64,000 nucleotides of DNA from Bryopsis sp. KO-2023 (lineage: Eukaryota > Chlorophyta > Ulvophyceae > Bryopsidales > Bryopsidaceae), in assembly GCA_030272585.1 (NCBI GenBank), contig BSYQ01000001.1:7192001-7256000 (forward strand), read 5' to 3'. Position 1 is the stretch's first letter; every line of letters starts with the position of its first letter. A model generated the notes under the pieces. That model was not told where the DNA came from. It saw nothing but the letters and a program-made list of their open reading frames with translations, and did not search any database. Both the position numbers and the translations under genes were made by a program. Shown here piece after piece: positions 231 to 22,682 of this stretch.

Positions 231-1136
231 CCGCAAATCCTCCCAGGATATATTCTCTTCTGAGCCAGCCTCACATGCATAATTCCCTCAGTGTACAGGA
301 AATACACACTACACCAACGATACACAGAGCAGCAGGTTCTTTGTCTTTCGTATACTCTCCCAGAAACCAATGCTGGCTTACTGACTTTTTCTGATTTTTA
401 TTCTGGGTCCAATGGCCTTGTTTAGCTCGTTTTCGCTGTGCTGTTTCGTATCTCAAAAAAATACCAAATATATATATATAATATATGATGATTATAAGCT
501 GGTATTAAAAGTAGTCCAATATGGATAAGTGTTTTCGTAGGAGGTTCAAGTGTACATATCGCCATTTTGTTTGTCATGCCCAAGGATTTTGCTCTGCTTG
601 ATTTTGCTTAATTTCTTTCTCTCCGGTTGGAAGGATTTCAATTTCTGTCTATATATTTGGGAAAGGGTTGGGTTCTGATTGGATTGCCCCGCTGTAGATC
701 TGTTCTTTCTTGAGTAAAATACAAGCGATCATGTTGTTGATCAACAGCATCAGTATAGAATTCTGGACATATGGGGTTGCATCATGAAATAATATCATCG
801 TGAACAAGATTGCTTTGCTCTTTGCACTTTTTATTTCCAGCATGCAGTGGAGTTTTACCCAGTGAACATGTTTGGAGAGTGCTGATGTTTTGGGTCATTG
901 AAAAGAAAGAATCAAAATTTGCATCTAGCATCATCCATGGATCACAGAGAAAATGAGAGGAGGGGGCGTAAATCTCATTGATAGGACCATGAAGTATCCA
1001 GCATATCGTCAATTCATGGAATCCCTCTTCAAACAGAAGTGCCAAACACTCATAATCATCTACATGAAAAGCATCTGTCTCGCTTTGTCTCTGATCAACT
1101 CCCACTGTTTGTGTATGGCGACATGAGGAAGATACA
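231..1136. other. Gene-free interval between two converging 3' ends
   Basis: AT-rich sequence with a short (TA)n tract near 465-485. It probably holds the 3' UTR of the leftmost + gene and that of the ESF2 gene coming from the right. No open reading frame here shows a recognisable domain or coherent splice signals. Confidence 0.5.
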
Positions 1137-2947
1137 TCAATCTGAAAGCCCTTTTCCATTCTGTCCACCAACAAGCATCATCACATCGGGGGCTATTTCT
1201 CCATCCGAATCTGACACAGGATCAGGATTTGCTTTTGTTTGTTTAAAGGATCGTCGCATCCTCATCTTTTTCTTTGAAGTCCCCCCTTTCGTCGCCTCAG
1301 CGCTGTCTTTTTCATCTGGATTTTGCTCAGCACTTCCATCCCCATCCTCATTCGCCTGCCAACATGCAGCAAAAACACAGGCATTTACATGCAAAATTTC
1401 CTAATATCTGTACAAAAAAATCATTTGAACCATTCAGCAGCATTCAGATTTTGCTCAGTGCTGCAAAATCTCCAAAAATCTCCTAATATTCCATGACTGC
1501 ATCGGTCAGGATGCACTCTCACCACAATGTCGCGTTCAATTCTCTTCTCTTCACGCTGTGCTTGGTTCACTTTCGTCAGATAGAATTCTTGATCTCGCTT
1601 GGCCTCAGAGAGCTCAGCTTGCAATCGATGCTGAAACACATGCTTCTGGTTCTCTATGCAACATCAATATTCAAAGCCTTAACGCACCAAAATCAGAAAA
1701 ACACATTTTACCAGTGAATGACGACAGGATTCATCATGGGCTTCTCAATAACCCTCAAGTGCAAACATACCCCACTCATTGCATTGCATTTTTTGTTCAG
1801 CAAGCTATTCAAGTACTCCCTACCTATGCCTTCCAGCAAGTTCTCCCATTTGAATTTTGGAAGATATTTTATGCACCACAGCTCATGATAAAACCGGCTC
1901 CGATGCCTTCCACCTAATGATCACATCACAAAATTATGATCTGAACAAAGTAGGGCTTCTGGATTGGTACCTCTGGACATTTGAAAACAAACCTCACCTA
2001 CCCATTGGTTCTCCATTCAGCATTCCCGCGATGCGTTTAGCAATTCTCTTATCAGCAAACTCCACCCATCCCTCAACGAAGAATTTTCTCGTATCACCGC
2101 CTTTTCTTTTCCTCTTGTGCCAATTCTTGGGATCTGCACGTTAAGGAGGTGAACTCATTAGATTACCGATGGACATGGGTCAAGAAAAAAAACCTCCACA
2201 AAAATGTGGATTGATCATGGAAAAAACAAGGGAAAACCCCCAAAAAACTGCATGTTAGCCATTCAATCCGACCAGCCACCACTAGAACCAAGGAGAGGTA
2301 GTCATACAGTGAATCAGCCTGAAACTCCCTCTTGCACCACAGCATACCTCACAGCCCTACCGTGCAATGTCTTGCACAGGGAGTCAGGAATAAAAATGGT
2401 GCTTTTCTTACAATACTGTCAGCACCAGCTTCAACCTGTTTCATTTTTATTGGTTACAATTTACTCAAATGGCATCTAAATTTTACCTTCCATCTGGAGC
2501 TGAACCCTGGTCACATCTGCATACTGGGAGAGTATTCGCTTGAGGATGCTTGGCCTCTGATAACAAATTTAGAACAGCAACCTTCACATCTGGAATACAA
2601 TACGCAGCATTTTGTCTTCCAAAAGACATTTTCCTTACCATTCCTGGGGGAATGTAGCCAAGATAGCATATCCCTGAGCAACACCCCACAACAGTCGATA
2701 AACCTCCACCGAGGACCTTGAATTATTATTATTATTTTTTAACAAACTCTTAGCCGTGCCCACCTCGCTTGTCGTAGGAGCTCTTCAATACTTGCAAGCC
2801 CTCTTTCGAAAACCTCTTTCGTTTTCTTTCCGGCCGCTCGGAGGTGGCGGCAGGGGACTTTCCATCAGCGCTGCATTCAATTTTATCCTGTTCCCCAGAG
2901 TTATCGCTCGCCGCAGCTCCATCGTCCTCCCTTCGGCTCTCCTCCAT
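1137..2947 (-). CDS. ESF2: ESF2/ABT1-family pre-rRNA processing factor (RRM protein)
   Basis: Seven exons on the minus strand join in phase: 2764-2947, 2639-2673, 2487-2556, 2002-2133, 1824-1913, 1523-1653, 1137-1355, giving 286 residues. After an acidic/basic leader, an RRM-like domain starts with [12 protein letters not shown] and continues through [12 protein letters not shown] and [20 protein letters not shown]. It then runs into [16 protein letters not shown] and the helical segment [15 protein letters not shown], which is the family hallmark. The length matches ESF2/ABT1 proteins. In yeast and animals these act in the nucleolus with the small-subunit processome in early 18S rRNA maturation. 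The start is the first in-frame ATG. The gene is head to head with the Sfi1/Kelch gene, 194 bp away. The terminal exon is low in complexity and not conserved. Confidence 0.9.
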
Positions 2948-3141
2948 CTTGCCCCGTCGATGTGGTGTGATTCCCTGGAGTTTCGCTCAAGAGAAGCCTG
3001 GCGTTGCCGTACAATTGGGGTTAATTGATTTAGATGAGATGGGTGGGATGAGGCATGCAACTCTGACGACCATGCAGATAAAATCGTCGCCAGCCTTCTC
3101 TATTCGTGGTGGGGGCTGGCGAGCAAAGTTGACCCAGTGGA
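2948..3141. promoter_or_regulatory. Short divergent promoter interval (ESF2 / Sfi1-Kelch gene)
   Basis: Only 194 bp separate the two proposed start codons on opposite strands, so both core promoters and 5' UTRs must lie here or overlap the genes. I see no clear TATA box. The role is inferred from gene arrangement alone. Confidence 0.45.
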
Positions 3142-6100
3142 ATGGCGGAGCGTACGTGGGAGTACCGAAGGAATAGAGCTCTCATTGAGCTCGACAATCA
3201 GTTGAGGGCTGCGAGGAGCTCGGCATTGCTGAGAAACAGTGGCGCTCGGGATGGGGACAGGTCCGTCCCATTTCGTTTTCTGGGGAAAACGAATGCTCCT
3301 GCTGAAGGAATGCATCTGGACTGTGCTGGATGTCTTCGTTCTCGTGTACGTTCTCCGTTCTAACCGTTTTGGACATCGAACGAGCGGGATTGCATTGGCT
3401 TTACTTCATCATGCGGTTCACAGGGTCGGGAAATCCGTCAATCCGAGCGGGATTGTCGGTGAAGAGAATGGGGAGCCGAGCCACAACGCGCTCCGATTGT
3501 TCGACCCTCCCCAAGGCGGTTGCGGGTCTTTGCAGCCGTCGGTTGGGAGGAATGATGCCATCGCTTCGCTAAGTGGCAATGAGATGCTGGCTGTTGGATC
3601 TGAGCCACGCAGCACAGATCCAAAATCTGCACTGTTGGCGCTGAGCGAGGAGGCGGAGCGACTCCAGCAAAGACTCCATGAAACAACGGGAAGAGAAAGA
3701 GTGCTTCAGGAGAACCTGGAGATCCAAAACAAACTCCATTCCGGGCAACTTGCTAATGTGGAGGTGAATGTTCGTTGAGGAAATTAGAGCTCAATGGTGA
3801 GCATTCTCGATATAGTCATTAATGGCGAACGAATTCTCATGACAGGAGGAGGCCAAGGCTGAAGTGAGGAGTTGGCAACATGCGGCGAAGAAAATGGCGT
3901 CTATTGTCAACCCAAAACGCCTCCAGAAACTTGCTTTTGCAGTGCTCCAGCAGCGAGCTCGAGAATCAAGAAGTCTTGCCTTCGCAAGAAGGGCATGGGA
4001 AATCAGAATCCTGCAGAGTGCCTTTCTGGGATGGCTGGTTGAACTGAAGAAAAGAAGGTGCCGCTGAAAACGCGCAACACATATCTCCGGAGATGAAAAA
4101 CAGAGGATCCTCTGTTTTTAATTTTCCTTTGGCATATAGAAATCAACTTCGTTTGGCGCAGGAAACGAGATGCTGGGTTGCTGGCGGCTGTGATCAACGA
4201 ATGGGTCCAGGCTGTGAAGCTTGAACGGGAAGCAAGAGGAAGGGAAAACCTCCGCAAGTTGAGATCAGCTTTTGTCTCCTTCAAATTGCATGTTGAGAGA
4301 AGGCAATGCCAGAAGGCGAACGAAACGTGGACAACGACCTGGAGACAGCGCAGGTCTTTGGCATCTGCATGGAAGTATTGGAGAGAGAGCATGTATTGGC
4401 GGAGAAAGAAGGAAAATGACCGTGGTCTAGCCCACAGTTGGTGGCGGACCTCCACACTTTGCAAAGGATGCAAGGTGACTGAATATCCAGCAGTTTTTGG
4501 CCTATTTCGCGAATTATCGATCGATAGTACCTCCTGGTGGTGGATCAGGTTGGGTTGGTCCTGATCTACATGATGTGTTTCAGTTTTTGAAAAGTATCTA
4601 TTGCTAGGGATGGAAGATCACAGTGAGGCAACGACATCAGGAGCGGGAATTTCAAAGTAGAAGCCGGGCTCGCACACTGGCGACAACTTACGATCAGTGG
4701 TGCCAGTTTGTGGAAGGAAGAAAATTGAGGGAGCGCCTGTTGACCATACCGGACAAGCAACATAAATATCGAGCGGCAAGCTCAGCGTTTCGATATTGGT
4801 GCATGGTCACAGTGGCAATGCGCAACAAGCGCCAGGATCTCGAGCACAGAAGGACCCACCACTTATTGGCGACCGCCTTTGATGCCCTCGCAATGGCAGC
4901 TGAAGAAGCCAAGTATGCGAGGCATACGGAGAGGGTCTTGGTCTCTTCAATTTTCGAAGTAGGGACCCATTCAATTTGCGCAAATGTGATCCCAGCTGAG
5001 AGAGCCGTTTCAAGATTGGTTTCGTCTGTTCCAGGCTTGGATGTGTTGGACAAAGTTGTCGCTGCGACACAGAAGAGTGGCTCGCGATCACTTTCATCAT
5101 ATACAGTTGAGAATCGTCAGAAGGTGCCTCGTTTCGTGGCAGAGGAGGACTGCAGTTTCGACTGCCCTTTCCGAAAAGTCTGCGATGGCAGCCTTGGCTG
5201 CAAAAGTGAGATCCTGAAGAGCGTTTCGCTGATCTCATCCTTCGTCTGGTTTCACCCCAAAACATCCCAAAACAAATGTCCCGCATTGCTTCTTACAGGT
5301 CGACGGAATGCGTGAGACGATCGAATTCTACAAGGGACGAAACAAACTATTGCATGATGAAAAATGCCACTTGCACGAGTGCGTGGCCCAAATAAGCACA
5401 CCACCAAGAACAATTCAGTCGGCTCCCAGTGTTATTTCAGGATGCGTGTGGAGCGCGATCTCATGCGAACCACCCTTTTCCCCATTTCCAAGGATGCGGC
5501 ATTCGTCGACTCGGGTTCGCATAGATTCCAGCGATGGCCTTGATGCTTTAAGTGGGGTGGTTTTGTATGGGGGAGAGTGGGATGGTGCCTGGCTCAATGA
5601 TGTTTGGGTTTGGTTGGGATCTGTGTCAGGTGAATGTCCCTCACTGCTGAACCCCCACCCTCCCTCGAAGAGATTTCACACAGACTTGGTTTCATCCAGA
5701 CTCAACAAGAAGTGGAGGTGATCTGATATTCAGAAAGTGTCACAGATCATGCGGACGAGGGTTGGTACCGATCCCATAGCGATTTGGAGGCGGTGACGAT
5801 CACGGCGAGACGAGATTTCGCTATGTGCAACGTCGGGACAGATAAATTTATCGTGATTGGGGGTTTTGGTGGAGAGTTTGAGCTTGGTGATGTTCAGATG
5901 GCCACTCTCTCGTGGAAGGAAGCCGATTCTACGAGTGAGTAAAGCGCTGCCTTGTGCGAACACCATTTTCCGACTGGAAACAAATGACAAGAATTCGTCC
6001 TCGCAGGATCCGGTGGCCCTTGCGTTGTGTGGACAGAAGTGAATGCAAACGGGCCTCGCTTCTCTGGACGATCGCACCATTCTGCAGAATATCACCGCAA

Positions 6101-13326: not shown

Positions 13327-16300
13327 TTAATGCTTCTTTCCCTTTTTTTTCTGTTTTCCTTCCAGCCTCAATCTTTTCATTTCCGCTTTCCGCAAGGCCT
13401 CCTGTCTTAGCCCGGCCATTTTCCTTCGGGTGTCCCCTTCAATATCATCCCAGTCGAATTTCATGGAATCGTCTTCCTTCACCGACGCCCAGTTTTCGAA
13501 TTCTTGGATCCTTATCTCAGTCTTCCCATTTGATAAGTAGTTTGTGCATAGCGACCTTCCAAGTGGGATGGAAAAAAACAGCAAAAACAAAAGAAATCAT
13601 TACTCCAAATTCTTTGGAAATATGGCTTTTGCTTCCTCAATTTCACTTCGTTGTACCACATATGCCAGACAGTGTCTAAATGCCTATGAAAATGATTGTC
13701 ATTTAAATTCTAGAATAAAACAGCCCATTGGACAGCACAAATCACGCACCTCAGCACAGCAGGATCGGACCGCCTCTCCTCAGGGGATCCAATGATCAGT
13801 CCATGTACTCTCAATCCAAGCTTTTCCTTTGCACCGGCCAGCTTCCTCATGATTTCTTGACCGGGTTGTCGAAGCTCCCCGTCAGACACCAGCAGGATAT
13901 CCGAGTTGGCCCACTTCGCATCTGTCAGCCTGTCCAAGCACCTCTTCACGGGTTCGTTGAAATCGGATCCACCATTGAAAACCTTCTCCAGGAAATCCAG
14001 AAGATTGTTGACGCTTTTCATATCCTGATTCAGCTCCAACTCACGCACCTACATCGAGAGCACCAAGATTCGATTTGACCCCAAATCCTTACAATTGCTT
14101 TAACTGGAAGGCACTCCATCTGGAGCCAGCGAGGACATCCCAGCATCGTCCATTCTCTGTCTTTCTTTTCAGTCTATGTGGAATACCAAATGATAGAATT
14201 CTATTTTCTTATGTTTTGGTTTCTTATTCCCTCAATGAAACTTCATCGTCTTAACTCTCGACAGAAGTTATCACACTTGTGTAGCAGCTCACCTCCTGGG
14301 GCCCCGAAAAGGCAAACACATAGCATCCCCTCTCCTGTTCCTTGGCTGCTCGCATGCATTCCAGTGACAGGGATTTGGCAACCGTTTCCCTGGGTCCCCT
14401 CATCGACCCAGACGTGTCCACACAAAGCAAAATTGGACCCCGATCCGCAGTGGGCCTAATTTCCCTCCTTTCAGGAATGATGTTGGTGGGGAAGTCTCCC
14501 CATCCATCCCTCTCATAGGTCGCCAAGGCTTTCTCCGCAAGCTTGGCAAAAAACAGCAGCTTTGCCTGTCGGATTTCCCTGCCTCTGGCCAGCAGCGCCG
14601 ACTCTGATGGCAACAGTCTGGAAATGTCATCCGATCGGGTCAACCCTCGAGTTTCTTGCTGCTCCAGCACAGTTCTGAGGAGTCCATCTCGACCTTTCAT
14701 GTCCAGATACTGCACGGGAGCTCGCCGAAGCGGACCCCAGCCGCCCCCCCTACCGAGGGATCGCACCAAATCTCGGAGCTCTTTGAGATCTTCGAGTTTT
14801 TGTCGGAGTTCGTCCATTTGGGCCCAACCTTTCCTTTCCCAGAGTTGGCCCCCCAAATCGAACTCCCCAGCTCGACCCCCACCAAGCAAGCTCTCCAGCC
14901 CCTCGAAAGCTTTTCCTGCCTGCTCAACCACAATCACCAGCGATGACTCAATCTATGCCAAATGCATCACAAGAACAGTGTCCATGCAGCCTTTGGGTCA
15001 AATTTAACACAAATGCTTCCTGCAACAAGAATCCAAGCAAGAACAACGAAAGCTGTTTCTTTTCAGGAGAGCGATCTTTCAGTGTATATACACCCTGACC
15101 GTCTCAGATTTCCTACCTTTGATAGGGCTTGCATAGGTGCTAACCACATCTTGAACAGTTCTCTCGTCACCTCCACAGCTGTTCTCTTGTCCAGAGGTAA
15201 CCCAGCCAGCGGATCTTTTTTCACTTTCTTTTTCTTCTTCTTTTTCTTCTCGCTCGCAGCAAGCTCCTCCGCACTAATACCTTGATTCATCCTCACTGCA
15301 AATATTCGAGCCCACCCCTTAATCACACCCATTCAAGCTTTCCAAACCATTCAGGCCACCCAACCACAACCTCAAACAAAAGATCGCACAGAACGGGAAA
15401 AAAACACCAAAAAAACACTGTGACAGACCCCCTCCAGAAACTTTAATTATTGTTCCATATTTTCCTTCCAAACCTAGACTTGAAAAGGGTTTTTTGACAG
15501 GGAATTCTTACCAGCTCTGGCTCTCGCCTCTTTCTCCTTCAGCTCGGCTATCGTTTCGTATCGATTTCCATCGAAATCAGTCGCCCTCTCTGTCGAGACT
15601 TCCTCCTCCTCCCTACCACAACCAGGATGCACAACACGATTCAACAGACCTGACAATTTGCAAGAAAAGAAACAGAAACAGAAATTACATTTCGCGAAGG
15701 TCCAATCCGCCCTCAAAAAAAATTAAAAAAATTCCAAAGGACCTATGCCCCCCCCCCCAGCATTCAAAAATCGCAGCAAGATTTGGGTGTGCGATGTCGA
15801 ATGTGGAATCTTACCCAGCCAAGACCTTGTGGTACTTGCACACAGTCGACAGAAGACTCATGATCAGTGCCTCCCTCACACCGGAGTACTTCTTAGCAAA
15901 CCTCGCGACATCCAGCCTTGACATTCCCCTGATCAAAGTCGATCTCAACGGCTCTGCGGGCCACTGCAACTCAGACACGCTGCGGCCTGCAGCGAAGAGC
16001 TCCCCGTCCGCCTTCAGCTGGCTGAGAGTGTTGTCATCTGGCAACAGGCCACGCTCCAGAGCGGCCTGCACTCAAAAACATTAAAACAATTCACAAAGCC
16101 ATTCAGGAAAGTATATTTTACAGGCGGGTAGTTAAGTACCCAACAAGAAGCATCAAATGAGGTCACCAAGAGCAAAACAATAAAAAAAATAAACTTTTAT
16201 AAAATTTGGGTGCAGGCCTACCTGCCACACAAGGAGACCTCTTGCACTTTCTTGAAGGGCTTCAGATGAATCTCCACCTTCCACTTTTGCCCTGCAAGCA

Positions 16301-16619
16301 TATATCCCAGCATTGGGTAATTTTTTTTCATAATCAATGACCAACCCAGCCGCGCTATCAAGGCATACATGAATACATGTATTGCTTTCCTCAGTTTTTT
16401 GAAAACAAGGGTCATGTAATGCAATAATACTTGACCCATGCTCCTGGAAAATCAGTGGAGTTTTTGAAATTTTTCCTGATATTTAATTTTCACAAAGCAA
16501 TGGCGCTGGAGAGTGCATTGATGTCTATCCCCACCTCACATGAGCCAAACGGAGAAGCCAAGGAAGGTGCCTTGCAGAAACATCCCCCATTTCTCCCAGC
16601 CCTTGCAGAATCGCCACAT
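13327..16619 (-). CDS. ViaA-like VWA-domain protein, partner of the RavA ATPase
   Basis: Eight exons join in phase to about 622 residues: 16540-16619, 16222-16291, 15815-16065, 15512-15612, 15117-15295, 14293-14952, 13750-14048, 13327-13555. The N-terminal half is helical (ALERGLLPDD…, ALIMSLLSTVCKYHKVLAG), with a charged, lysine-rich linker. The C-terminal half is a VWA domain with MIDAS motif CVDTSGSM at about 404-411, then GGSDFNEPVKRCL and ILLVSDGEL, and a basic tail. The order and motifs match E. coli ViaA (YieM), which binds and stimulates RavA. The family also resembles CoxE-like VWA proteins. It lies head to head with the RavA-like gene. The first exon (ATG at 16619) is the weakest call and does not look like a typical transit peptide, so a different 5' exon may exist. 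Confidence 0.85.
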
Positions 16620-17081
16620 GGCTGCCCTGCTCGATTTCTGGACTTGCTACTGCCGAGAGGGATTGAATGGGGTGTCGGGAGGATGTTCTGTAATGGAGGG
16701 GGGGGATTGGAAAAAAAGGCCTGTTGCTCCCAGAACTGGGTCTATTCAGGGAGCCAGCAGCCAACACAGGCTTTCCAGGATGGCAACATGGTGAGGAGAC
16801 GCGAAACACGTGCATTCTGTTGGGGTAGGGGCAAAAAAACGGAACAAAAAAAACCGGGTGGGTTCGGAGGGACGGACACCGCCCTGGGGTGAAACAAAGG
16901 TCGAGGAAAACGTCACACTAAAAAAGATTTGGATTGCGATGAAGATTCTCCACGTAATTCTGATGTGATTTCCAGAAACGACAGAAGACCACTTTTCTGT
17001 GCTTTTTTTTTTACCCTCAGGGTTGCTCTTCCCTTCGCCACTCCGTTTTCGTTTTCGCCCCGTGTTGGTCCCCCAGCAACG
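16620..17081. promoter_or_regulatory. Divergent promoter region shared by the ViaA-like and RavA-like genes
   Basis: The 462 bp between the two proposed start codons must contain both core promoters and leaders. It includes a G-run near 16699-16706 and pyrimidine-rich stretches near 17005-17030 just upstream of the RavA ATG. No canonical TATA box was recognised. Co-regulation is inferred from the arrangement and from the known partnership of the products. Confidence 0.5.
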
Positions 17082-20000
17082 ATGAACACCATTTACTGCA
17101 AAGCGCCGGCTCGCGCTTCCGTTTTATCAAGGCCGAGAGCGGCGCGTTGCTCTGGTGTGAATCCTGCGAGGATTGCTTCTCGTCCTTTATGTCCTGCCTT
17201 CAGAGACCTTCCCTGCGTGCGAGATGTCGGCTTGAAAGCCGTGAAGTCTCAGGACGCTAGCGACACCTTGGACGCAGCAACGGTTCAGTTGATTGCTGAT
17301 CTCACCGCTGGCGTCGACGCCAGCGTGAAGGAGGTTGTCGCGAAACACGCCGAAGAAGCGAAGTTGGAAGGCGTGATGGAGGGTGTGGACAGCATTCTCC
17401 GCAAAAAAGTTCTGAAGTCTATCCACGAACTCCAGGCTGGACTGCTCGAGAGGGAAGTCGAGGTAACTGAAGCTTGAAGTGTGGTTGGAGCGTGGCTGAC
17501 AGAAACACCCCCACAGCTCGATCAAGGGGAAGTCCTGTGAGTTGAGTGTTGTGTGTTATTATTAGGTCCGGTTGCTTCTGTTGGCTGCCTTGTGTGGAGA
17601 GCATCTGCTGCTGTTGGGACCTCCAGGTGATGCTCCTTTCTAACAAATCAAATGGATCAGACAGTGGCGTGGTTGAAACCCTCAGAAAGGTGGAATTCAC
17701 CCGATCCTTTACAAAAGAGGGGAATTTGTTGTGTTTAATTCGTGACATTTGAAAATTCAATATTTTTTGTGGCCACAATCAGGAACTGCAAAGTCGGAGC
17801 TGTCTCGCCGTCTCAGTGGGCTCTGTGGAGGAAAATATTTTGAGAGGCTGTTGACCCGATTTTCAGTTCCAGAGGAGCTCTTTGGGCCTCTTTCGATGAG
17901 AGGTGATTCTTGAACGACTAATATAGAAGATGATATGTGGTCAATTTCATATCTCATTCGGAAAAATCAGTTTCCTTTTCCTTGCTGAAGATTTAGTATT
18001 TATTTATTTTATATAGTTTCCCCCTGCAACACATGCAACAGTTTCGAGGCTCAGGTCACTCACAGGCAAGGGTTTTGTCCGATTATGGAGGAGTTATTCC
18101 TATATTGCATTGAGCTCAACACAACAATGGTCCCATGTGTTTTTTTTCTTTTGTTGGGGAAGGATGGAAGCCCGCAGAAAAGAAATTGATTTGAAAATAA
18201 CCGGTGGAAAACTTTTCCCTGCATTCGATTAGGGTTGGAAAACGACGTGTACGAGAGGAAAATCGATGGATATCTCCCAACCGCTGAGGTAGCTTTCATC
18301 GACGAGATCTTCAAGGCCAACTCTGCGATTCTGAATGCCCTGTTGACTTTGCTGAACGAGCGTCTCTTCGACAACGGAAACGAGCGATTGGAGGCACCCC
18401 TTCTGTGTTTGGTCGGTGCTTCCAACGAGCTCCCCGAGAGTGAAGAGCTGGATGCCCTGTACGATCGATTTTTGATTCGCCGCCAAGTGGCGCAAGTGTC
18501 CAGCGGGCAATTATCCAAACTTGCGAGATTGGCGGCCGGCAGAAAAGATCTGGCTGTGGAGGAGCTCAGCTCGGATTCCAATGGGGGTCCGGTGGACCTT
18601 GATGTCGAGAAAATAGCAATGGAAGAGTTCAGGTAATCAGGAAATGGTGGGCATGTTGGCAGCGCAGAAATTCTCTTTCTGCGTGTGGAATCTGACATTC
18701 AATCCTACTTTGGGAAAATGCGATGGGCGCTGTAGAAAAATAAAAAAATACTTACTCCGTCCCAGAATAACTGTCCACTAACATTTAAGGTTACAGTTCA
18801 TCAGTACGATATCCATTTGCTCTGAAATTTTGTGGGCAGCATCTCTGATACACATAGATGAAGCCCACAAAATTTCAGATCCATTAATCGAGAGGTTATG
18901 ATGCAGTGACTCCAATACCAGAAACGAAGCGAAAACTGGATTTTCACCTCCCTTATGAGCGTTTTGACACGTTACAAGTTCATCGTTTGCCTCAAAATTT
19001 TGTCAACACATGCCTCAGATGTTCTGTCGTGAGCTCACAATATTTCGTAGTAATTGAACCAGTGAGTAAAGCATGATGTCGTCGTCTAGTAAATCGTGAC
19101 GACTATAAAACCGAGGAAAGTCGACCTCTGAAACCGAAAATAGCGGCGCGGTGCGCGAACTCCACCTCGACCTCGCAAACGTCATAAACGCAACTCAAAA
19201 GACCTTTGCGCGCCAGTTCGCTTGAAAATAGGAGCGACAGTCACCAAGCTGCCTATAAAATGGGACTTTGACACGGAATGCCAAGCGCATTATACGAGAG
19301 GCCAGGTGGAATTTTCAGAGCAAATTTTGGGGATACACTATACAAAGTGTATATTGTTGCTTTATAAAAGTATCTTACAATTTTGGATTAATTTTAGTAT
19401 GCAAATTGTAAAAGTTGTCGAAGTGAAAATCCAGTTTTCGCTTCGTTTCTGGTATCGGAGACACTGCATCACAACCTCTCGATTAATGGATCTGAAATTT
19501 TGTGGGCTTCATCTATGTGTATCAGAGATGCTGCCCACAAAATTTCAGAGCAAATGGATATCGTACTGATGAACTGTAACCTTAAATGTTAGTGGACAGT
19601 TATTCTGGGACGGAGTAAGTAGAATTTTGGCATCGGAGCAATGAGTCAAGGATTGTCAGGATTTTTCTCAGAAAGAGATAATAACAATTGACTGTCTCTT
19701 TCTGATGATGGATGGAATTAAGAGAACGATAACGAGTGCGGTTAAAAGATCGTTGTGCATTTGAAAGTGTGTGCAAACTTTTTCTCTCTTTTTCTTGCAG
19801 GACAGCAGCTGAAAATGCCTATGCTTCAGTGGATGTGCCTGAGTCTGTCGTCGATATTCTCACGAGTTTGAGGGACCATCTCCAAGACAAATGTGAACCA
19901 CCTATCTACGTATCAGATCGTAGATTCATGAAGGCAATCCAATTACTGCAAGTTGCTGCCAGTGCAGATGGTCGGAGTCAGGTGGAAATCTGTGCACAAC

Positions 20001-21137
20001 AGAGGATCAAAACTGTTTGGTTTTGCCCTTCAAAGACTAGGGTTTGGAAAGAAACAGAAACAGAAATTACAAGTTTCGTAGTGCAAAGCTGCTCTCATTG
20101 AGGGTTTTCTGGCCACTCTCACTCCCTGCAGTTTTTTTGAACTTTTCTGATTTTCTGGCGAAGGTCAACGAGTACGACTGCTTGTTGCTGGAGCATGTGT
20201 TTGGAAATCGACCAGATGATGCGCAGAAGGTCAAGAGCTTTGTGGTGGAAACCATTGCGTCTGACCCTGGCTTGCAGCAATCTGCACTGGTGTTCTTGGG
20301 ATTGTTCGGAAGAGCCTGCAGAGTGCTGGGTAAGACACACCATCCCTGCTGTGCCGTCATTAGTCATTTCCTCAGAAGATTGTCAGTGCCAACTTTTCGC
20401 CCACTAACATTTGGTCTATGAGCTGAGATTCGAGGCAAGGTGATGTTCATTTTCCGACTGCGATCTCTCTCGTTCTTGTTTTTTCAGACAATCCAACTGA
20501 TACCGAGATTGCTGAGGCAACAGAGGAGGTATCGGCTCTGGTTAAATTGTTGGAGGCTCGCCATGGTGGGATTGCCCAAACTCTGGATGGTGAATTCCCA
20601 GACCTGAGGGCGACCATCTGGCAGAGCGAGGGAACTGTGCAGGCTGCCGTGCAATCTTTGACACCACAGATGACAGAGAACAGGAAAAAGGTAGGAGTGG
20701 TTAGAAAAACCCCTTCGAAAACAGAAGTCAGACTCCTGTGCATGTGTGTGTTTGTGTTTATTTTCCAAAGATATACCCTGACATTTTCCCCATCCCTTTG
20801 GGAATTCATCTAAACTGAGTGTGCAGCCATTTCTGGCAGGAGGTATTTCTGGTGAGTCGACTCAGTTTGTTTGTAAAGGAGCAACACGAACACTGTGTGC
20901 AAATGTGTGAGAGATGTAATTGCATCAAAAAAAGAAAAATAGGTTGGTGCGTTTTTATGCATGAAAATTTGATATATGTATATACATTGGTGATGTGCGT
21001 TTTAGGTGGTTGATCTTTTGCGGGAAGCTAAGCTGGTTGAAGCTTGCCTCAAGGAAAAAACGGAGGCCAGCGTCCTCGAGAGATTGCTCCCAAAGAGATT
21101 CAAGCAATACAAAAAGGGAATCTCTGGGGCTGCTTAG
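17082..21137 (+). CDS. RavA/MoxR-family AAA+ ATPase with plastid-type leader
   Basis: Eight exons join in phase to 547 residues: 17082-17462, 17566-17626, 17783-17902, 18233-18632, 19801-19981, 20164-20329, 20488-20690, 21006-21137. The first ~55 residues are Arg/Ser/Ala-rich and lack acidic residues until a late Asp, like a chloroplast transit peptide. The AAA+ core shows Walker A GPPGTAKS (145-152), [15 protein letters not shown], Walker B AFIDE (208-212), [18 protein letters not shown] (sensor 1 and arginine-finger region) and [17 protein letters not shown]. These match bacterial RavA motif for motif (E. coli RavA is 498 residues). RavA hexamers work with ViaA as a chaperone-like machine. 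The C-terminal part is only weakly conserved. Intron 4 (18633-19800) is enlarged by a transposon-like insertion. Plastid location is inference. Confidence 0.93.
18751..19619. mobile_element. MITE-like element with 197-bp terminal inverted repeats and TA duplication
   Basis: The left arm 18751-18947 and right arm 19423-19619 are near-perfect reverse complements. Both ends read inward from CTTACTCCGTCCCAG, and each end is flanked by TA (18749-18750 and 19620-19621). The terminal sequence and TA target resemble Stowaway/mariner-type MITEs of plants. The central ~475 bp has no transposase-like frame, so the element is probably non-autonomous. Each arm itself contains a smaller palindrome built around TGAAATTTTGTGGGC. 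It sits in intron 4 of the RavA-like gene and leaves the splice sites intact. Confidence 0.85.
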
Positions 21138-21734: not shown

Positions 21735-22682
21735 ATGGGTGCGGGGGGGAGCAAACCGGACAAAGAGTCACAGGTGTCCACGTTCGAAACAATTTTGGAC
21801 TCCTACGAGACGCTGGAGGACGTACAGGGGGCCCTCAGGCAAGCAGGCTTAGAGTCGTCGCACTTGATCCTCGGACTCGACTTCACCAAGTCGAACGAAT
21901 GGACGGGCGTGAACTCGTTCGGTGGGCAGTGCCTGCACGCCGTCAACGTCGAGATCAATCCGTACCAGGAAGCCATCTCCATCATCGCTCGAACCTTGGC
22001 GTCGTTTGACGACGACCATCTGATTCCCTGCTACGGTTTTGGAGACGCGACCACTGGGGACACCGGAGTTTTTTCGTTTTACCAGAATGACGTCCAAGCC
22101 CACGGGTTGGACAGCGTTTTGCAGCGATACAAGCAGATGGCACCGTTCGTGCAGTTGGCGGGCCCCACCTCATTCGCACCGCTCATCAAGCAAGCCATGA
22201 AGGTGGTGGTGGACAGCGGAAACAAATACCACATTCTGGTGATCGTTGCAGATGGCCAGGTGACACCAACTTGCCTCAAAGACACAATCAATGCAATTGT
22301 GGCAGCAAGTCACCTGCCCCTTTCGATCATCATGGTGGGGGTTGGAGATGGCCCATGGGAAACCATGCAAGTTTTCGATGATCAGCTCCCTGTTCGGAAA
22401 TTCGACAACTTCCAGTTCGTGAATTTCCATGAGGTGAAGGCCCAAGCTGCGGTGTATTCCGAAATGAAGAAGAGGGAGGCTCATTTCGCACTGCATGCCC
22501 TCATGGAGATCCCTTTGCAATACCGGACCATCGTGAAGCTGGGGTTGTTGCAGAGCTCGAAATCTAAAGGCCATTTGAAAGGCATGGAGCCGAACCTGAT
22601 GCCACCCCCACCCGCTGTGATGCAAGCGGATATGATGGCTATGGCGGGGACAATGAACCCCTCTGCTCCTCCTCAAATGTGA
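21735..22682 (+). CDS. Copine/VWA-domain protein related to RGLG, without RING finger
   Basis: A single uninterrupted frame of 315 residues. It begins MGAGGSK, a good N-myristoylation signal for membrane attachment. A copine-type VWA domain spans about 25-275, with the metal site DFTKSNEWTG, then YGFGDATTGD, GPTSFAPLI and IIMVGVGDGPW. Plant RGLG proteins have this myristoylated copine domain followed by a C-terminal RING ubiquitin-ligase domain. Here the protein ends after a Pro/Met-rich tail (PPPPAVMQADMM) with no Cys/His pairs, so ligase activity is not expected. Metal-dependent membrane or partner binding is inferred. It is intronless, unlike most neighbours. It could equally be called a short copine-like protein. 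Confidence 0.9.
   Translation: MGAGGSKPDKESQVSTFETILDSYETLEDVQGALRQAGLESSHLILGLDFTKSNEWTGVNSFGGQCLHAVNVEINPYQEAISIIARTLASFDDDHLIPCYGFGDATTGDTGVFSFYQNDVQAHGLDSVLQRYKQMAPFVQLAGPTSFAPLIKQAMKVVVDSGNKYHILVIVADGQVTPTCLKDTINAIVAASHLPLSIIMVGVGDGPWETMQVFDDQLPVRKFDNFQFVNFHEVKAQAAVYSEMKKREAHFALHALMEIPLQYRTIVKLGLLQSSKSKGHLKGMEPNLMPPPPAVMQADMMAMAGTMNPSAPPQM

Follow-up and report, generated by a model that had tools for sequence, protein, structure and literature searches.

The 64,000-nucleotide stretch of Bryopsis sp. KO-2023 DNA analysed here, called the window throughout (G000:C1:7192001-7256000), lies on an 11.4-Mb contig (C1) of an assembly of 91.09 Mb in 28 contigs, and it holds a head-to-head pair of genes for a RavA-like AAA+ ATPase (ATPase1) and a ViaA-like VWA protein (VWA1). 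The gene models, start codons included, are predictions from the sequence, spliced at GT-AG sites. ATPase1 occupies positions 17082-21137 of the plus strand, and VWA1 runs from 16815 to 13327 on the minus strand; splicing joins eight exons in each gene into one uninterrupted frame, of 547 and 689 amino acids (aa), respectively, which bears out the original prediction of about eight exons per gene. The genes diverge, as had also been predicted, but 266 bp (16816-17081) separate their start codons when the first ATG in the open frame of VWA1 exon 1 (16815) is taken as the start of that gene; the 462-bp interval given before would imply another start. This measured start-to-start interval is a possible shared divergent promoter.

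Exon 1 of ATPase1 (17082..17462, plus strand as for all exons of this gene) carries the start codon and a leader-like N-terminus, as judged from the spliced open reading frame and the leader composition. Walker A begins in exon 2 (17566..17626; GT-AG borders) and is completed by GTAKS in exon 3 (17783..17902; spliced frame and GT-AG borders). Exon 4 (18233..18632) and exon 5 (19801..19981), which encodes the AAA lid with YVSDRR, rest on the spliced frame and Pfam, exon 6 (20164..20329) on the spliced frame and GT-AG borders, exon 7 (20488..20690), which encodes the C-terminal region, on the spliced frame and the alignment, and exon 8 with the stop codon (21006..21137) on the spliced frame. On the minus strand, exon 1 of VWA1 (16535..16815) likewise contains the start codon and a leader-like N-terminus (spliced frame, leader composition), and exon 3 (15815..16065; spliced frame, comparison of the two algal VWA proteins) encodes a WPAEPLRS region that also occurs in a second algal protein, VWA2, described below. 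Exons 2 (16222..16291), 4 (15512..15612) and 5 (15117..15295) are defined by the spliced frame and GT-AG borders. CVDTSGSM is encoded in exon 6 (14293..14952; spliced frame, NCBIfam and alignment), GGSDFNEPV and LLVSDGE in exon 7 (13750..14048; spliced frame and alignment), and a lysine-rich tail together with the stop codon in exon 8 (13327..13555; spliced frame and alignment). The tail has no aligned counterpart in eight of the nine other alignment rows shown, and Azoarcus ends in a separate tail. Two possible mini-exons, one within the final intron of VWA1 and one ahead of exon 8 of ATPase1, were considered by eye and set aside, since they would disrupt the frame or insert a single codon.

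The family assignment of both products agrees with the original prediction, since all six motifs quoted there are present in the two proteins and RavA and ViaA are their top families. The matches lie well above chance level. ATPase1 matches the Pfam models bpMoxR (206.5 bits, cut-off 27) and AAA_lid_8 (76.9 bits, cut-off 22.8), and VWA1 matches VWA_2 (39.2 bits, cut-off 27) and VWA_CoxE (30.1 bits, cut-off 26.4). In NCBIfam, the top family for ATPase1 is RavA (237 bits), and ViaA (130.5 bits) is the sole family matching VWA1 at E <= 0.1. Three sequences of solved structures match ATPase1 at E <= 0.001, and all are Escherichia coli RavA (best E 2e-57); the match to E. coli RavA itself scores 198 bits. 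GPPGTAKS, F[IV]DE, GASNELP, YDRF and SDRR are aligned in both algal ATPases, DxSxS is retained in both algal VWA proteins, and the motifs DTSGS, GGSD and SDGE of VWA1, of the metal ion-dependent adhesion site (MIDAS) type, are aligned in a VWA domain on the C-terminal side. We take the ATPase motifs to be Walker A and B, sensor and arginine finger, and the VWA motifs to form the metal site. With these and a RavA-type lid, ATPase1 has the AAA+ core of the RavA subfamily.

The algal ATPases differ from E. coli RavA in the region that separates the lid from a conserved C-terminal column, which spans 84-86 residues in the two algal proteins and 187 in E. coli RavA in the alignment. The same region has 182-206 residues in most gammaproteobacterial and Myxococcota relatives, 158-169 in three Vibrio-group rows and 124-141 in nine betaproteobacterial rows, L010 included. 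The insert of E. coli RavA is the LARA domain (PF12592), which binds lysine decarboxylase (LdcI); PF12592 has no match in ATPase1 or anywhere in the host genome. Because the insert at the decarboxylase-binding position of E. coli is missing, the algal ATPases are, by sequence, RavA-like and of the RavA/ViaA type in the broad sense rather than RavA equivalogs, and the absence also suggests a client different from that of E. coli RavA. The AlphaFold model of a bacterial relative, the Thiomargarita ATPase (mean predicted local distance difference test score 85.2), shows the AAA+ core and, besides it, a helix, two long helices and a stretch that contains strands, at about 320-430; RavA accounts for its best four PDB matches (E 7e-28 to 3e-25), and the next entry follows at 2e-11.

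Genome searches with the family models found a second RavA-like gene (C1:2.045 Mb) and a second ViaA-like gene (C1:2.909 Mb). ATPase2 (C1:2043775-2046712, minus strand) has nine exons and encodes 561 aa, and VWA2 (C1:2906096-2909593, plus strand) has 11 exons and encodes 650 aa; both are complete and leader-bearing, and the VWA2 model leaves the position of one splice acceptor open to within a few residues. The two ATPases are 47% identical over 509 aligned positions, and the two VWA proteins 32% over 677. One intron, identical in position and phase, is common to ATPase1 (seven introns) and ATPase2 (eight introns). ATPase2 and VWA2 lie about 0.86 Mb apart on the same chromosome as the window pair, and tblastn (E <= 1e-3) detected no partner relic near either gene, over 20 kb around ATPase2 and 10 kb around VWA2. 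The preserved linkage proposed originally thus holds for the pair in the window and is not general in this genome, applying to one of its two pairs. A short frame resembling a GNAT acetyltransferase by eye (L019, about 2434-2925, minus strand) starts about 170 bp from VWA2 in divergent orientation. Taken by sequence, the algal proteins are a eukaryotic, insert-less variant of the RavA-ViaA kind that is present twice.

Two PsbO loci and about seven RbcS places in the genome, the latter spread over contigs C3, C8 and C10 and with leaders of the MAL... type, show that the host is a photosynthetic eukaryote. Features of RbcS would put it in the green line. The RbcS match at G000:C10:4795689-4796126 contains two in-frame TGA codons and may reflect an intron or a pseudogene. 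Bacterial contamination is ruled out by the introns in both genes, the length of the contig and the presence of PsbO and RbcS in the same assembly. The first 50 residues of all four algal proteins contain 0-2 acidic residues, where 7-9 would be expected from the rest of each protein, and the algal N-termini are longer than those of most bacterial rows shown in the alignment, in which bacterial frames run from stop to stop. This composition probably reflects import into an organelle and fits plastid and mitochondrion alike; the leader called plastid-like in the original prediction is organelle-like in composition, while the plastid as its destination is unsupported.

Bacterial relatives were collected by scanning genome contigs with an alignment of four ATPases, and the best 80 of at least 566 were used. 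By title these 80 are mostly Beta- and Gammaproteobacteria and Myxococcota-type bacteria, the remainder being one Alphaproteobacterium, four Bacilli, two Methanosarcinaceae, one Thorarchaeote, one Bacteroidete and three named just 'bacterium'; no title among them is cyanobacterial. A ViaA-like VWA frame overlaps the ATPase frame or lies at most 2.3 kb away on the same strand at 76 of the 80 loci. It is absent at L027, L062, L096 and L098, of which the last three end near the ATPase. The bacterial order is ATPase then VWA on a single strand, not divergent. Frames were read from stop to stop, and at L038 the ATPase and VWA matches share one open frame (725-3157), possibly a natural fusion. On contigs classed as viral (L013-L016), MoxR-like ATPase genes are followed by VWA genes 0.2-1.9 kb downstream. 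Genomes that match ATPase1 at E <= 1e-40 number 132 of 377 in the Lujinxingia phylum and 32 of 398 in the phylum of L029. The algal ATPases are 48-54% identical over 275-320 residues to those of the RavA/ViaA-like operons L021 (Thiomargarita), L025 (Parabeggiatoa), L022 (Lujinxingia), L051 (Myxococcota) and L010 (Betaproteobacteria), with Thiomargarita at 54%, and the Thiomargarita VWA protein is alignable over about 500 residues. No defence-system model matched the Thiomargarita pair.

Phylogenetic trees place both algal proteins with the same bacteria. The quick ATPase tree had 88 rows, without L096 and L098 (incomplete loci) and the viral L017 and L018, and the quick VWA tree had 84, additionally without L027 and L062 (no VWA), L050 (partial) and L038 (single frame). 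A careful tree of the joined proteins had 45 rows, from 38 of the 88 extracted loci (L100 by annotated coordinates) and the plasmid loci L120-L123, and a careful ATPase tree with more Myxococcota had 50, from 31 of the 88 loci and 17 of the 20 loci L124-L143, with L126, L130 and L135 left out as repeats. Rows were chosen by similarity, and several non-algal rows are also long-branched. The two algal ATPases are sisters (support 100, starred) and unite with a clade of Proteobacteria and Myxococcota (96, starred); the algal VWA proteins are likewise sisters (100, starred) and unite with the same clade (99, starred). In the joined tree, the corresponding values are 100/100 for the algal pairs and 100/98 for the union, and the opposite side of the branch holds E. 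coli RavA-ViaA and Bacteroidota, along with Bacilli, archaea, one row from a phage and four from cyanobacterial plasmids. The union receives 99/96 in the 50-row ATPase tree. In the ATPase, VWA and joined trees alike, the rows with the shortest path to the alga, the paralogue aside, are Thiomargarita and Parabeggiatoa. In approximately unbiased (AU) tests, a grouping of the alga with E. coli plus two Bacteroidota was rejected (p 0.0014), and one with the two Thiotrichaceae alone was borderline (p 0.041), for which reason the donor family is left unnamed. Among the sampled rows, the ATPase and the VWA protein thus point to one bacterial operon clade and not to different bacterial sources, and the simplest reading is therefore the acquisition of a single operon followed by duplication. 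The pair was apparently taken over together, as judged from these trees, from bacteria other than the sampled cyanobacteria and later doubled.

In bacteria, MoxR ATPases act with VWA partners in the maturation or repair of respiratory enzymes and of enzymes that contain metals. We clustered the flanking frames of at least 150 aa from 79 bacterial loci by single linkage and scanned one representative per cluster. A cluster of DmsB-DmsC-like iron-sulfur/anchor fusions occurs at 11 of the 79 loci, gammaproteobacterial or unassigned by title; in its representative L026, for which alone adjacency was read, the frame overlaps the ATPase frame. Molybdopterin oxidoreductases resembling formate dehydrogenase and nitrate reductase occur at 8 of the 79, a mostly betaproteobacterial DUF364 cluster at 14, and a sigma-54 activator cluster at four (L031, L011, L021 and L061), of which that of L031 is RtcR-like (NCBIfam RtcR 337 bits, below cut-off). 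One further cluster, of 10 loci, resembles shadow frames. No client neighbour common to the whole clade was found in the flanks of these 79 loci. Taken together, the flanks hint at a role in maturing redox enzymes that contain metals. A candidate operon for the maturation of a molybdoenzyme is seen at L026, L037 and further gammaproteobacterial loci.

We consider it probable that the algal proteins form an organelle-imported machine of the RavA and ViaA types, which came from one bacterial operon source and was duplicated early, one pair being linked and the other split. Both genes would have come jointly from a single operon, in a lineage represented today among Proteobacteria and Myxococcota. 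A duplication early in host ancestry, ahead of most intron gains, would then have produced the two pairs, an order that we infer, and one pair would have been kept head-to-head while the other was split. By analogy with the family, the ATPase is expected to form an ATP-driven hexamer that pulls on, remodels or matures a client complex, with the VWA protein docking through its MIDAS metal site and selecting the client. The interval between the two genes in the window may serve as their common promoter; complex formation, organelle import and client remodelling by the algal pair, and the conserved co-regulation suggested originally, are likewise conjectural. A fuller scenario, which we put forward tentatively as a plausible account, is that a whole operon passed from a non-cyanobacterial bacterium into an algal ancestor in insert-less form, gained introns and leaders, was duplicated, and yielded two paralogous two-part MoxR/VWA machines that act inside an organelle on a new client, which would amount to a eukaryotic chaperone system of the MoxR/VWA type encoded by two genes.

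Several observations weigh against this interpretation. Both NCBIfam equivalog cut-offs are missed widely (237 of 681 bits for RavA and 130.5 of 500 bits for ViaA), and VWA1 carries Ser at a position that is Thr in the rows of E. coli and Thiomargarita (GGTD). In the insert trait the alga is unlike its nearest relatives, and the short, insert-less form also occurs in rows of cyanobacterial plasmids (79-103 residues), Bacilli (110 and 111), a Thorarchaeote (108) and a phage (99); because the alga has this form in common with other groups, the insert may have been absent from the algal line all along. The trees sample cyanobacteria through plasmid rows and eukaryotes through this alga alone. The branch leading to the alga is long, and the 50-row ATPase tree does not resolve the bacterial backbone, so that no donor can be named; in a superseded ATPase tree lacking minus-strand loci, the clade node had 91/94, unstarred. 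VWA1, with seven introns, and VWA2, with 10, have no intron position in common. The linkage in the window could be secondary, because the second pair is unlinked.

That last point bears on the view that the head-to-head arrangement is a chance or secondary neighbourhood without co-regulation. The 0.86-Mb separation of the paralogous pair, the lack of partner relics around it and the one-strand order of the bacterial genes are all in line with this view, as is the divergent frame next to VWA2 seen by eye, which makes close divergent starts not unique to the window. We nevertheless find it rather unlikely, since any divergent adjacency would be expected in about 3 of 10,000 cases, a figure reasoned rather than computed for four pairings and an assumed 15,000 genes. 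An endosymbiotic origin, in which the pair arrived with the cyanobacterial ancestor of the plastid and orthologues reside on cyanobacterial chromosomes outside the sample, would suit a photosynthetic host with leader-like N-termini and the short ATPases of the four cyanobacterial-plasmid rows, and Synechococcus elongatus does match the broad RavA family somewhat, below the cut-off. This origin appears improbable to us: S. elongatus gives no ViaA-family match at E <= 0.1, where 4 of 14 control genomes match; the ATPases of two cyanobacterial-plasmid pairs reach 31-41% identity as against 54% for Thiomargarita; cyanobacterial titles are absent from the best 80 of at least 566 loci, three of them merely 'bacterium'; and the AU test rejects grouping the alga with the four plasmid pairs (p = 2e-8). 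The cyanobacterial derivation put forward originally therefore gives way to Gammaproteobacteria (Thiomargarita, Parabeggiatoa), Lujinxingia and Myxococcota as the nearest relatives, and on present sequences we grade it as unsupported rather than excluded, the comparison being limited to plasmid homologues with cyanobacterial chromosomes unsampled.

Assignment to a different MoxR system (CoxD-CoxE, CbbQ-CbbO, NorQ-NorD or YehL-YehP) instead of the RavA-ViaA type could draw on the VWA_CoxE match of VWA1, which is to a broad model, and we hold it to be very improbable. No NCBIfam model so named matches at E <= 0.1, the content of the library for such models being unchecked, and neither ATPase1 nor VWA1 matches E. 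coli YehL or YehP at E <= 10. In the Thiomargarita genome the top ATPase match has 293 bits and the next-best 25. The trees carried no reference members of CbbQ-CbbO, NorQ-NorD or CoxD-CoxE. Another alternative is a mitochondrial rather than plastid machine that aids respiratory complexes, which we judge possible, if less likely than not. The leaders contain Arg and almost no acidic residues, the DmsB-DmsC-like cluster flanks 11 of the 79 bacterial loci, and E. coli RavA-ViaA reportedly interacts with Nuo (PMC3893208) and with fumarate reductase (PMC10585395). Against it, the leaders do not tell plastid from mitochondrion, and the Thiomargarita locus is outside the 11 loci with the DmsB-DmsC-like cluster.

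Other features of the window stand apart from the probable organelle machine. Intron 4 of ATPase1 (1168 bp) holds an 887-bp transposon-like element (18742..19628) with 209-bp terminal inverted repeats that are 97% complementary; it was defined by its inverted arms and genome matches and is not part of the machine. One end of it gives 41 scored matches genome-wide, a count that includes the two arms of the element itself, and its termini resemble those of the Stowaway/mariner type. Directly 3' of ATPase1, a long open frame (21735-22682) has a copine/RGLG-type look by eye. Rfam and tRNA scans of the 64-kb window were empty.

A search of title and abstract starts in the open-licence literature found no eukaryotic RavA-ViaA pair, and annotations of relatives may well exist; according to a 2024 paper, MoxR ATPases had so far gone undetected in eukaryotes (PMC11432383). 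If the proposed reading is true, organelle biology would gain a chaperone class through this duplicated RavA-ViaA-like pair, carried in the chromosomes of a photosynthetic eukaryote, and it would be a case of a eukaryote inheriting both members of a bacterial operon together. The missing insert would make client choice in the RavA family directly testable.

Among known systems, midasin carries AAA+ and VWA within one polypeptide. Midasin is listed as a eukaryotic MoxR-vWA case in PMC7159879, and VWA8 is described in PMC10743472; both proteins resemble the algal pair in coupling a MoxR-type AAA+ module to a VWA domain. VWA8 combines the two in a single polypeptide (PMC10743472), whereas the algal pair consists of two genes on opposite strands. 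The rubisco activase CbbQ-CbbO is likewise a MoxR ATPase with a VWA adaptor and acts on Rubisco (PMC5437159), but no CbbQ or CbbO model is among the NCBIfam matches of the algal pair. E. coli RavA-ViaA (3nbx, 4upb; NF010054, NF008230) is both the best curated family and the best structure match, and it shares the AAA+ core with AAA_lid_8, the MIDAS-type VWA partner and the adjacency of the genes; in comparison, the algal pair is divergent, intron-bearing and leader-bearing and is without the insert at the LARA position. The RavA-ViaA-like operons of Thiomargarita, Parabeggiatoa, Lujinxingia, Myxococcota and Betaproteobacteria belong to the same clade for both proteins. In most gammaproteobacterial and Myxococcota members the C-terminal helical region is longer by about 110 residues; this added part, which is rich in strands in the model of the Thiomargarita protein, is missing from the alga. 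These operons are leaderless and on one strand, whereas the algal genes are divergent and bear leaders.

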